A DNA stretch of 35,726 nt. Origin: Spirochaetota bacterium. Its GTDB lineage: Bacteria > Spirochaetota > UBA4802 > UB4802. Positions 16,485-35,726 of this stretch are shown here, in pieces (within the stretch, counting starts at the first letter, position 1; the number at the start of each line of letters is the position of its first letter). The translations under genes were made by a program, and so were the position numbers. The notes under the pieces were generated by a model. That model was not told where the DNA came from, searched no databases, and worked only from the letters and a program-made list of their open reading frames with translations. The stretch spans positions 1 to 35,726 of the forward strand of contig JARYLT010000019.1 in the NCBI GenBank assembly GCA_029907515.1. Reading direction: 5' to 3'.

Positions 16485-18573
<2,089 letters not shown>

Positions 18574-27604: not shown

Positions 27605-29002
27605 ATGAAATTACGAATAGTCTTAATTACAGTCATTACCTTTATTATATGTACCGCACCATTAACTGATGCAAAAACTGTAAAAAAAGCTCAGGGATCG
27701 GAGAATATTTCCGATTTATCAAAATTTAATGAACAACTGGTAAAGGTAACCAATAGTGCTATTCCAACCGTTGTCAGTATATCAGCAGAAAAAAAGGCTG
27801 GCAGCCCACGGGAAAGCAAACGGATGCCTATGCCTTTCCCGGTCCCCAAAGAAGCAAAGGCACTGGGGTCAGGTGTTATTATTGATAAACGCGGATATAT
27901 AGTTACCAACAATCATGTGGTAAAAAATACTAAGTCCATAACCATTACGTTATTTGACAAACGAACATTCCCCTGTGAGTTGGTTGGCTCTGACCCCGCA
28001 ACTGATATTGCAGTCATTAAAATTTCCGGTACAGTTCCTCAGGATTTGCCAGTTGCCGTCATGGCTGATTCGGACACATTAAAAGTTGGGGAGATAGCAA
28101 TAGCAATAGGTAATCCGTTTGGATTTGGGCATACCGTGACCATGGGTATTATCAGTGCTACAGGCCGGGAAGGATTTGGACTTGCCGATTATGAGTATTT
28201 CATCCAAACCGATGCTGCCATTAATCCCGGTAATTCTGGTGGTGCCCTGATAAACATTAATGGTAAGCTTATTGGCATTAATACTGCCATATTTTCACGA
28301 AATGGCGGCTATATGGGAATAGGGTTTGCAATACCATCAAACATGGTAAAACAGGTAGTAGATGAGTTGATTAATAAGGGCAAGGTAACACGAGGGTGGC
28401 TTGGCGTATATATTCAGAACATTACACCGGAAATAGCAAAAAACTTCAAGTTTGAAGGAAGAAAGGGTGTTTTGGTTGCCGATATCATGAAGGATTCACC
28501 TGCAAAAAATGCAAAAATTGAAATTGGAGACATCATTATTTCGGTCAATGGCGTTGAAGTGTCTGATATAAATCAGCTCCGAAGATATGTTGCTTCATTA
28601 AAACCGGGTTCAACTGCCAAAGTCAAAATATTCAGGGGTGGTCAGGAACTGGAACGGGAAGTACTCATTGCTGAGCTTCCTGCACAGGCACAGGCACCAG
28701 AAGAAAAGATGGAAGAAGTTGATACAATAGGCATGCGTGTGGGTGATATTACTGAAGAGAATGCCTATAAATTCAGAATTACTGATACTACAGGAGTAAT
28801 TGTACTTGAAATTCAGGAGCAAAGTCCTGCGTATGAGGCAGGCATGATGGTTGGTGATATCATCAAGGAAATTGAAAATACTCCTGTGGAAAATGTTGAT
28901 AAATATAACGAATTGCTGAAACAATATGAAAAGAAAGAAACATTACTACTTCTGGTCAAGCGTGGAGGTATCCATAAGTTTGTGGTAATCAAGAAGCAAT
29001 AG
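27605..29002 (+). CDS. degP: HtrA/DegP-type periplasmic serine protease with two PDZ domains
   Basis: A signal peptide (about 1-23, ending near DAKT) exports it. The trypsin-like domain carries the triad H104 (TNNHVV), D134 (PATDIAV) and S211 (NPGNSGGAL). Two PDZ domains follow, about 255-345 (RGWLGVYIQNI) and 375-460 (GMRVGDI). It degrades or refolds damaged envelope proteins. Its stop codon is immediately followed by the stop of the convergent trpS gene, with no bases between. Confidence 0.93.
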   Translation: MKLRIVLITVITFIICTAPLTDAKTVKKAQGSENISDLSKFNEQLVKVTNSAIPTVVSISAEKKAGSPRESKRMPMPFPVPKEAKALGSGVIIDKRGYIVTNNHVVKNTKSITITLFDKRTFPCELVGSDPATDIAVIKISGTVPQDLPVAVMADSDTLKVGEIAIAIGNPFGFGHTVTMGIISATGREGFGLADYEYFIQTDAAINPGNSGGALININGKLIGINTAIFSRNGGYMGIGFAIPSNMVKQVVDELINKGKVTRGWLGVYIQNITPEIAKNFKFEGRKGVLVADIMKDSPAKNAKIEIGDIIISVNGVEVSDINQLRRYVASLKPGSTAKVKIFRGGQELEREVLIAELPAQAQAPEEKMEEVDTIGMRVGDITEENAYKFRITDTTGVIVLEIQEQSPAYEAGMMVGDIIKEIENTPVENVDKYNELLKQYEKKETLLLLVKRGGIHKFVVIKKQ

Positions 29003-33103: not shown

Positions 33104-34780
33104 TCAACCTTCTTTTTGAGCTATTTTTGCCCATGTGTCTTTCAGTGTAACAGTTCTATTAAAAATGAGTCTATCAGTGTTAGAATCAGGATCAACGGTA
33201 AAATAGCCCAACCTTTCAAACTGGAAATTAGCGTAAACCTGCGCACCTTTGACAAAAGGCTCTATATAACCAGTGACAACTTTAAGTGAATCAGGATTAA
33301 TGTAATCCGTAAAATCTTTGCCTTCTTCAACTTCAGATGGATCTTCCTTTGTAAACAATCTATCATAAAGGCGTATTTCAGCAGGCAAGGCATGTTGTGC
33401 GCTTACCCAGTGAATGGTGCCTTTGACTTTTCTGCCATCGGGTGCATATCCGTCTTTTGTGTCAGGGTCATAGGTGCAATGAATTTCAGTAATGTTCCCG
33501 TTGCTGTCTTTTATAACGTTTACACACTTAATGAAATACGTATAACGTAAACGCACTTCAGCACCAGGTGAAAGCCTGAAAAATTTCTTTGGCGGATTTT
33601 CCATAAAATCATCACGTTCAATGTAAAGGACTCTGGAGAATGGTATGTTTCGGGTACCAGCGGCAGGGTCTTCAGGATTATTTATACCTTCAATGTATTC
33701 CACCTGATTATCAGGATAGTTAAGTATAATCACTTTAAGAGGATTGAGCACACACATAACACGGTTGGCTTTTTTGTTTAAATCTTCCCGTATGCAGTGC
33801 TCAAGCAGTGCGATATCAACCATACTATCCTTTTTTGCAACACCAACAAGCTTTGCAAAATTTTTAATAGAATCGGGAGTGAAACCTCTTCTTCTGAGCC
33901 CTGCGATGGTAGGCATGCGTGGGTCGTCCCATCCATTTACAAAGCCTTCCTGCACAAGTCTTAAAAGCATACGTTTGCTCATGACAGTGTAGGTTAAGTT
34001 AAGACGTGCAAATTCAATCTGTTTTGGACGTTGGCCTGTCGCTATATGGTCTAAAAACCAGTCATACAATGGACGGTGTACCTCAAATTCCAGAGTACAA
34101 ATGGAATGCGTTATTCCTTCAATGTAGTCGGATTGACCATGAGCCCAATCATAGGTAGGATAAATGCACCATCTATCGCCCGTACGATGATGGTCCGCAT
34201 GTTTTATGCGATACATCACAGGATCACGCATATGCATATTGGGCGATGTCATGTCTATCTTTGCACGCAATGTTTTTGAACCATCGAGAAACTCACCGTT
34301 TTTCATACGCTCAAATAGGTCTAAATTTTCTTCAACACTGCGGTTGCGGTATGGGCTTTCTTTTCCAGGTTCGGTAGGTGTACCACGCGTTGCTGCAACT
34401 TCCTCAGCGCTCATGTCACAAACATAGGCTTTACCATTTTTAATCAAAACTTTAGCCCATTCATACAGTTGTTCAAAATAATCGGAAGCATGTTTAACAT
34501 CATTATCCCACTGAAATCCTAACCATTGGATGTCTTTCTTTATTGATTCAACGTACTCAATATCTTCCTTTTCAGGGTTGGTGTCATCCAGGCGCAAATT
34601 GCATTTGCCATTGTATTTTTGAGCAATTCCAAAGTTAAGGCATATTGATTTTGCATGTCCAATATGAAGATAGCCGTTAGGCTCCGGAGGGAAGCGCGTA
34701 ATAACTGATGAACAAACATTATTTTTTAAATCTTCGTTGATAACTTCTTCAATGAAATTTGTAGCTTGTGATAGTTCCAT
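33104..34780 (-). CDS. glnS: Glutaminyl-tRNA synthetase
   Basis: This class I synthetase charges tRNA-Gln directly. It has [17 protein letters not shown] (29-45, HIGH motif), DDTNPEKED, the KMSKS-equivalent VMSKRML, and the C-terminal beta-barrel anticodon-binding domains from about 340. 558 residues is the normal length. [11 protein letters not shown] and VMSKR are GlnRS-specific and exclude GluRS. Its presence implies that this organism need not rely on the GatCAB amidation route for Gln-tRNA. Confidence 0.96.
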
Positions 34781-34883: not shown

Positions 34884-35418
34884 GGCTCTGACCCCTTGTT
34901 AGGTGTTTGCCGAATCCTTGTTTGTTCTTAGTCATCAACACTTTTGATCGATCATATGCTTTGATTATACGTATTGATGTTAACTTATTATGCTTTGACC
35001 TAATTTTCCTGGAGAATTTTGCATTCCCTACATACTCCGCATGATGCGTTATTTTGCCTCACACAGAGCGTACTGATGGCACAGAGATTGTAATACTTTA
35101 CTTTTATGCACTTTCTTTTGTCCAGACGGCAACATAAGAAAGTGACAAATAAAAATGCCTTGTACTATTGCAATATATGTTATTGTTGCCAGCATGCTGC
35201 GGACGCCTTCCTACTAAATACCGGTTGCTGAGTTTATCGAAGCACGCACGCAACTCTAATCGCTTCGACATCCTGTCTCCGCTATCTTTCGTAACTCAGG
35301 TATATATGCAATCGTAGGCTCTGACCCTTTTTTTAAGCATTTACCCTCTATTTTCTCCAGTGTTTCTTCTGTGTACTCTGCGTTCTCTGCGTGCGTTTCC
35401 ATGCTCTGACCCCTTGTT
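34884..35418 (+). repeat. Three dispersed copies of a GCTCTGACCCC motif
   Basis: GGCTCTGACCCCTTGTT is at 34884-34900, GGCTCTGACCC at 35317-35327 and GCTCTGACCCCTTGTT at 35403-35418. The first and third share 16 bases exactly. All lie upstream of the RAYT-type transposase and none inside a gene. Confidence 0.7.
35109..35144. repeat. Hairpin-forming inverted repeat
   Basis: CACTTTCTT (35109-35117) pairs with AAGAAAGTG (35136-35144) around an 18-base loop in the gene-free stretch before the RAYT gene. It may be one arm of a REP-like unit. Confidence 0.5.
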
Positions 35419-35538
35419 TTGCAAATTTTTTATCAAAATTACAAAATTTTCCCCAATTCTTTTCAATTTTTTCCACCAGAAGCGTTGTATATAATGAAAG
35501 CTTTATTTTTCATCTTACTATATATACGGAGGAATACT

Positions 35539-35726
35539 ATGGCTCGGAAATTGCGTGTACAACTACCAGGTCTAACCTACCACATCACGTCCCGCTGCAT
35601 AGAATGGAAATCTATGTTGCAGGAAGACTACTGTAAAGCTTGCTTTGTGGAAATACTCAACAAAGCGAAAGCTAAATATCACTTTAAACTCATTGCCTTC
35701 TGTATTATGGATAACCATATTCACCT
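35539..35726 (+). CDS. REP-associated tyrosine (Y1/HUH) transposase, N-terminal part
   Basis: The first 62 codons read MARKLRVQLPGLTYHITSR, the usual RAYT opening, and reach the metal-binding HUH motif in MDNHIHL just before the window ends. The catalytic tyrosine would lie beyond the edge. Such proteins are IS200/IS605-related single-strand transposases thought to move REP palindromes. A strong CGGAGGA ribosome site stands five bases before the ATG, so the gene looks intact as far as it can be seen. Confidence 0.88.
   Translation, partial: MARKLRVQLPGLTYHITSRCIEWKSMLQEDYCKACFVEILNKAKAKYHFKLIAFCIMDNHIH

Follow-up and report, generated by a model that had tools for sequence, protein, structure and literature searches.

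What is the short repeated word in front of a transposase gene at the end of this contig, and what keeps it there? The window that we analysed, 35,726 nucleotides long, is the whole of contig C104 from the genome (G000) of an uncultured Spirochaetota lineage, whose close named relatives are Spirochaetia/Spirochaetes MAGs. At its right end is the 5' part of a gene for a RAYT (REP-associated tyrosine transposase; 35539..35726, + strand; Pfam and NCBIfam), which runs off the end of the contig at 35726. An earlier note on this DNA proposed that the gene is accompanied by its own dispersed family of palindromic motifs. Our main reading, to which we give a probability of about one half, is that this is a TIR-bounded (TIRYT-like) RAYT locus, that the RAYT recognises the word GCTCTGACCC, and that a bias in copying keeps the words up.

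The RAYT gene and its ends

The gene was correctly named as a RAYT. The window copy is truncated upstream of the catalytic tyrosine and scores 38.2 bits against NCBIfam NF047646; the full-length copy on contig C175 of the same genome scores 86.7 bits (cut-off 80). The predicted model of a relative from locus L203 (mean pLDDT 92.5) has 4er8, a RAYT, as its top PDB match. As regards the C-terminal helix-turn-helix or DnaA_C-like domain of TIRYT subclass 2.1, Pfam finds Y1_Tnp alone, and the relative's model has C-terminal helices beyond residue 145. The Y1/HUH catalytic core is present, with H60, H62, and Y125 invariant in 12 aligned relatives. The NCBIfam model for IS200 gives 30.8 bits (cut-off 55), so we do not class the gene as an IS200 transposase. 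(A separate IS200-type transposase, on contig C105 of this genome at 93569-93913, is the genome's best Y1_Tnp match; there are no copies of the word in the 3.5 kb that we read around it.)

Three copies of GCTCTGACCC had been reported before the gene. All three are exact and on the + strand (exact-match scan). The copy at 34885..34894 is the left border of the pre-RAYT word array, and the flank to its left is shared with the syntenic locus in G002. The second is at 35318..35327. The copy at 35403..35412 is the last word before the RAYT, and the stretch around it is common to other RAYT 5' regions of the genome. The copies at 34885 and 35403 are followed by C and continue as GCTCTGACCCC; the copy at 35318 is followed by T and continues as GCTCTGACCCT. 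A fourth exact copy, at 27987..27996 (+), had been missed. It lies in the gene for a trypsin/PDZ (HtrA-type) protease (27605..29002, +; Pfam), where it encodes part of GSDP, and it is intact in all four congeners compared (G001-G004). The window has four exact copies and no one-mismatch copies; the shuffled expectation for at most one mismatch is 0.56, and four were reached in 0 of 100 shuffles. To the left of the array is the gene for glutaminyl/glutamyl-tRNA synthetase (glnS; 33104..34780, - strand; Pfam and synteny), which flanks the RAYT site on the left, in synteny, in five genomes. We found no GCTCTGACCC near the window's GIY-YIG nuclease gene (2525-2743), which is one of two in the genome and is the other small nuclease beside which the earlier note placed a palindrome family.

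The earlier note took the word to be palindromic, but it is not. GCTCTGACCC is not self-complementary, and the window copies all point in one direction. The 9-bp-stem hairpin that the note described does exist (35109..35144, with a perfect stem of 35109-35117 and 35136-35144 and an 18-nt loop). It is A+T-rich, is not built from the word, and shows no sign of belonging to the system, so we rejected it as the RAYT's palindrome. The unit between the last two words of the window folds no better than its shuffles, and the median z for 27 inter-word units is -1.1. The only palindromes are formed outside the window, by words that pair up in inverted orientation. A search for RNA families gave a single match, below its gathering score.

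Other repeats lie among the words. CTCTGCG or CTCTGTG units with a period of about 10 are found between words at 35376-35400 of the window and in the RAYT arrays of G003 (L099-L107); G003 also has inverted copies, with long hairpins in some units. These units seem to be a second dispersed repeat that travels with the word array. Positions 35229-35242 read TGAGTTTATCGAAG, with two mismatches to TGAGCTTGTCGAAG, which we take to be a dispersed palindromic sequence of many bacteria.

The other end of the gene can be traced by synteny. In G003, glnS, the RAYT, and a DUF72 gene are contiguous. The end of contig C3 of G000 has DUF72 and the 3' end of a RAYT. The right flank of this locus matches the one in G003, and the stop codon is followed by an inverted word. 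This is probably the 3' end of the window's RAYT, which would supply the inverted downstream partner that the earlier note had proposed to look for. Inverted words are present at all six RAYT 3' ends examined in G000. Among nine complete RAYT copies of G003 that we read with both flanks, five carry an inverted word 6-13 nt past the end of the gene and four lack it; eight have a word inside the RAYT gene. At eight G003 loci, all of the words within 1 kb upstream (32/32) point with the gene, and all of those within 500 bp downstream (5/5) point against it. Farther from the RAYTs, both orientations are found, and neither clearly prevails. Since tandem words precede the gene and inverted words come just after it, the gene looks like a word-bounded cassette.

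Similar loci are known as TIRYTs (TIR-associated tyrosine transposases) or TIRtrons. According to the available portions of two accounts (PMC3733652 and PMC6006769), these have a RAYT-like Y1/HUH gene with short flanking inverted repeats (consensus GGGGWSAS), and the repeats are also dispersed, whether single, paired, or clustered. By inspection, the complement of our word, GGGGTCAGAGC, contains GGGGTCAG, which fits GGGGWSAS (some copies read AGGGTCAGAGC), and inverted repeats flank the gene here too (for the window gene, via the synteny with C3). We place the gene with the TIRYTs, a kind that is sparsely described. Unlike TIRYTs as described, the system here has an exact 10-mer core that is kept at silent sites in host genes, RAYT-centred islands, several dialects, and a multi-copy RAYT; the portions available of the same accounts (PMC3733652 and PMC6006769) mention none of these features, nor Spirochaetes as hosts of TIRYTs. 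IS200/IS605 elements share the Y1/HUH transposase fold, but their ends are subterminal hairpins with a short target, whereas the ends here are inverted words.

Islands and dialects of the word

G000 has 154 copies of GCTCTGACCC (73 on the + strand and 81 on the - strand) and 0 copies of the reversed word, which makes the word a dispersed family. The four congeners have 161, 186, 208, and 119 copies, with no reversed words in any of them. Among 296 genomes drawn from the phylum, at least 16 copies were found in 24 of the 34 genomes from this order and, outside the order, in just one genome (which also has 5 matches to the reversed word). Of the 24 word-rich genomes in the order, 22 have a RAYT match; we found no RAYT match in G017 (25 words) or G036 (18 words). 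Among the 10 order genomes with four words or fewer, four have no RAYT match, three have weak matches only, and three have RAYTs that are 41-46% identical. Two of the low-word genomes, G011 and G020, which we read at several loci or at one, have other dialects of the word. (Outside the order, loci L127-L133 of G085 have RAYTs that are 38-42% identical, with repeats of CCTGGCACC and no GCTCTGACCC. The pattern may reach beyond this order.)

Within a genome, the words cluster around RAYTs. G000 has 15 RAYT matches, many of them cut at contig ends, and the word array is shared by other RAYT 5' regions of the genome, which is what the earlier note's account implied. The words form islands of about 5 kb on either side, in both intergenic and coding sequence. 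Across eight loci in G003 and six in G035, from which we compiled the profiles of density and orientation, density is 4.7-5.8 words per kb in the first 500 bp upstream and drops below 0.2 per kb at distances over 7 kb. Two control regions had 1 and 0 words. G035 has 239 words; of the 100 that were listed, 47 are in three islands and about 40 are outside islands. Each of the three main islands has a RAYT or the C-terminal piece of one beside an assembly gap, and in all, six islands of G035 have such a RAYT or RAYT piece at an assembly gap. L277 and L278, smaller islands with 6 and 7 words, have neither a RAYT match nor an assembly gap; they may be what is left of lost RAYT loci.

Every subline of RAYTs goes with a word of its own: GCTCTGACCC, ACTCTGACCC/ACTCTGACAC, GCTCTGACAC, CTCTGGCACC, CTCTGAGCA/ACTCTGAGC, or CCTGGCACC. 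Dialects differ between sublines even inside one genome (L281 in G035 and RAYTb in G003). Mapped onto a tree of 81 RAYTs, the dialects of the 70 labelled rows require 8 changes; if the 11 unlabelled rows are treated as their own group, 18 changes are required, versus a mean of 33.6 after shuffling. (The list of dialects was made by inspection, and some rows of the tree are near-duplicates from the same genomes.) GCTCTGACAC, which belongs to the second RAYT line in the genus, has 39, 11, 46, 50, and 22 copies in G000-G004 and at most 18 in each of 13 other genomes searched. Because the copies are genome-wide and the dialects track the RAYT tree, we agree with the earlier note that the word is this RAYT line's own dispersed family.

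One residue of the RAYT covaries with the dialect. Residue 3 is N in all six E-dialect RAYTs and R in all 60 of the others that have both a dialect and that residue, and the E-dialect RAYTs have at least two origins on the tree. A scan for convergent residues in the GCTCTGACAC dialect found one weak column only. (At two named MAG loci, L237 and L258, the RAYTs have TYP and SSD near position 3, and the end sequences are TCTGAGCCTAT and CTCTGAGAC; these are perhaps further dialects.) The co-variation of dialects, the placement of words at the gene ends, and the covarying residue make it quite probable that the RAYT protein recognises its word.

Could the word be a host signal instead, similar to an uptake sequence or a recombination hotspot, which RAYTs evolved to use as target and end? 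Words do occur in genes with no RAYT nearby. DNA uptake sequences are exact short words with dialects, are tolerated in coding genes, are found in both orientations, and have extended flanks; they resemble the word in all of these respects. But the words here cluster at RAYTs instead of being spread genome-wide, and the dialect follows the RAYT subline, not the species, so that one genome can have two dialects, each around its own RAYT line. Also, the four order genomes with neither a RAYT match nor arrays have 0-1 words. The islands and the dialects disfavour a genome-wide signal that is independent of RAYTs, and we consider a host signal improbable.

Words conserved at silent sites of host genes

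We read the coding status of 80 of the 154 copies in G000, using open reading frames of at least 110 amino acids. Of these copies, 34 fall in such frames, on both strands and in several reading frames. (Two of the 34 stand apart: the final entry on C171 overlaps a RAYT 5' region, and one entry on C175 is within a RAYT gene.) The proteins that were confirmed by Pfam are the HtrA-type protease, GlnS, TonB, POR_N, a class IV aminotransferase, an HI0933-like protein, and DUF72. A radical SAM match was below its cut-off, and two 80-amino-acid segments had no match. Some word-bearing genes are presumably KorA, YgiQ, Mur ligase, and UPF0280, to go by their sequence motifs.

The word is conserved in these genes far beyond what the proteins account for. 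First, we compared 28 coding sites to their orthologs in G001-G004. The exact word was kept in 59 of 80 comparisons, versus 2713/17362 for other 10-mers of the same segments. At third positions of codons that encode the same residue, 205/222 are identical in the word versus 2932/4740 in the flanks, and the edges of this conservation coincide with the ends of the word.

Second, we extended the comparison to 110 coding sites from all five congeneric genomes, excluding RAYT genes. Because such comparisons share ancestry and count every genome pair, p-values would overstate their independence, and the effect sizes are the point: the exact word was kept in 234/316 comparisons versus 8631/67794 (12.7%) for other 10-mers, and silent third positions were conserved at 791/849 in the word versus 10605/18072 outside it. 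Pairs that include G001 or G004 show lower retention. Given the same codons elsewhere in the alignments, 349.8 of 719 codons would be expected to be kept, and 663 were.

Third, another dialect behaves alike. GCTCTGACAC in genes was kept in 50/63 comparisons versus 2765/12973 for other 10-mers (37 sites). When GCTCTGACCC or GCTCTGACAC changes, its commonest replacement is the other one (9/82 and 9/13 changed comparisons, respectively). Small sets from other families agree (16/23 versus 1489/4624, and 6/8 versus 127/1786). Outside the genus, ACTCTGACCC and CTCTGAGCA gave no usable ortholog sites for this test.

Finally, words in genes and between genes have the same flank preferences, so the reading frame cannot be the cause of these preferences. 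Across 292 coding and 258 non-coding words from all the loci that we fetched, position -2 is A in 50% and 67%, respectively; position -1 is G or T in 88% and 91% (with C in just 1-2%); and position +10 is C or T in 98% of both.

An ordinary explanation would be that these are repeats like REPs, REPINs, or MITEs, all of whose copies were inserted, and that in-gene copies either were inserted too or arose by coincidence where common peptides such as ALTP or SDP are encoded. The intergenic inverted pairs and the word arrays at RAYTs do look TIR-derived. We rejected insertion for the coding sites that have outgroups. The outgroups, G012 and G014, have 0 and 1 words and no RAYT match. Their orthologs were alignable at 11 of the 28 coding sites, and none of their rows has the word. 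These rows are gapless, except for one that lacks a single residue and, at another site, one of three rows that has two extra residues; none shows a word-sized insertion. We also rejected coincidence, given the order-wide counts and two controls. Words with one mismatch (29 words at 13 coding sites, with GCTCTGACAC left out) were kept in just 2/36 comparisons, compared to 234/316 for the exact word at its 110 sites, and the codon-matched controls show that codon preference cannot be the entire cause. It also counts against this explanation that the copies are read in several frames and on both strands. The repeat explanation is contradicted for the coding copies and stands for part of the intergenic ones; as an account of all copies, it seems very improbable.

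In the available portions of published accounts, a RAYT or REPtron is a Y1 nuclease with a cognate dispersed repeat, and the repeat and the enzyme co-vary (PMC6006769, PMC8266576, PMC3116915); REPs are described as palindromes with a GT[AG]G foot that are mostly intergenic, with in-gene copies reported as insertions (PMC6006769 and, for the insertions, PMC3733652). Here too, a Y1 nuclease has its own dispersed repeat that co-varies with it. But REPs and REPINs are extragenic or inserted palindromes, and our word, which is not self-complementary and is coding in 34 of 80 copies with no word-sized insertion relative to the outgroups, does not fit that class.

RAYT turnover and the upkeep of words

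RAYTs come and go at fixed sites. The glnS site has a RAYT in G000, G002, and G003 and none in G001 or G004. In G004, a decayed, relic array with zero exact words is left, and in G001, one inverted word is kept. G001 also lacks a RAYT at the TonB site, where three of the four words in TonB persist. (At about 17014-17779 of locus L306, the TonB locus of G001, there are short ORFs where G003 has its RAYT; these seem to resemble remnants of Rpn/YhgA-type nucleases.) Over 165 nt, the window's RAYT is 94.5% and 95.2% identical to two other copies in G000 (and 74.5% to a further copy, on C175), versus 89.1% and 75.8% to its syntenic partners in G003 and G002. Since it is closer to these two copies in its own genome than to its syntenic partners, we conclude that RAYTs at fixed sites are replaced or converted.

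We propose that the HUH/Y1 nuclease of the RAYT recognises a short word that is not a palindrome, approximately A-K-GCTCTGACCC-Y, and that it would nick or join DNA at words near its own gene. Homologous recombination would then copy word-carrying versions of the neighbourhood preferentially into word-less ones. In this way, words would be restored and would accumulate around each RAYT, and they would decay once the RAYT is lost. We prefer a copying bias because the clusters track RAYT sublines, no theme unites the affected genes, and RAYT loss was followed by decay of intergenic words. Still, that such a bias is the force that maintains the words is a conjecture, and we put it at somewhat less than even odds. 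The fuller claim, that a RAYT keeps or writes its own word in the surrounding host genes by preferential copying, with one dialect per subline, is more tentative still.

Several observations do not sit easily with this proposal. What argues most against a strictly local process is that coding words persist without a local RAYT (the HtrA-type gene in G001 and G004, and three of four words of TonB in G001). Such sites might be served in trans by RAYTs at other places in those genomes. Other observations against it are the two G035 islands without a RAYT match, the roughly 40 of 100 listed G035 words that are outside islands, and the genomes G017 and G036, which have words but no RAYT match. Also, an enzyme that acts on one strand might be expected to leave the words with an orientation, yet the words far from RAYTs show no clear one.

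The persistence of coding words at RAYT-free sites would fit a use of the system by the host. A domesticated RAYT could bind nearby words in service of the cell (for instance in local repair, replication, or nucleoid organisation, or as a nuclease parked near its own gene), with the words under purifying selection on the host. The conservation of silent sites across strongly diverged flanks also fits this, and RAYTs at other loci of a genome could supply the activity in trans. But the affected genes have no common theme, the number and place of the words vary by species, and RAYTs are multi-copy and are exchanged between sites, which looks selfish. We think host use doubtful, if less so than a host signal, and we favour upkeep by copying bias.

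In our literature search, which had most subscription journals outside its scope, we found no account of words conserved at silent sites, or of nuclease-centred islands of words, in host genes around RAYTs. A search for the literal word GCTCTGACCC gave nothing on bacterial repeats or mobile elements among the matches listed.

The word system bears on what RAYTs do for their hosts, or to them. Because the word is short and exact, and can be counted, dated, and silently mutated, and because there are closely related loci with and without a RAYT, that question becomes directly testable. The several dialects and the one covarying residue also offer a candidate natural recognition code for an HUH nuclease. 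If it is true that a transposase-like nuclease holds words at its neighbours' silent sites, then codon choice there would be set partly by a mobile element. A nuclease-driven word system would be a local, selfish counterpart of the drive of uptake sequences, and the ordinary genes in the islands would bear a hidden second code at their silent sites.
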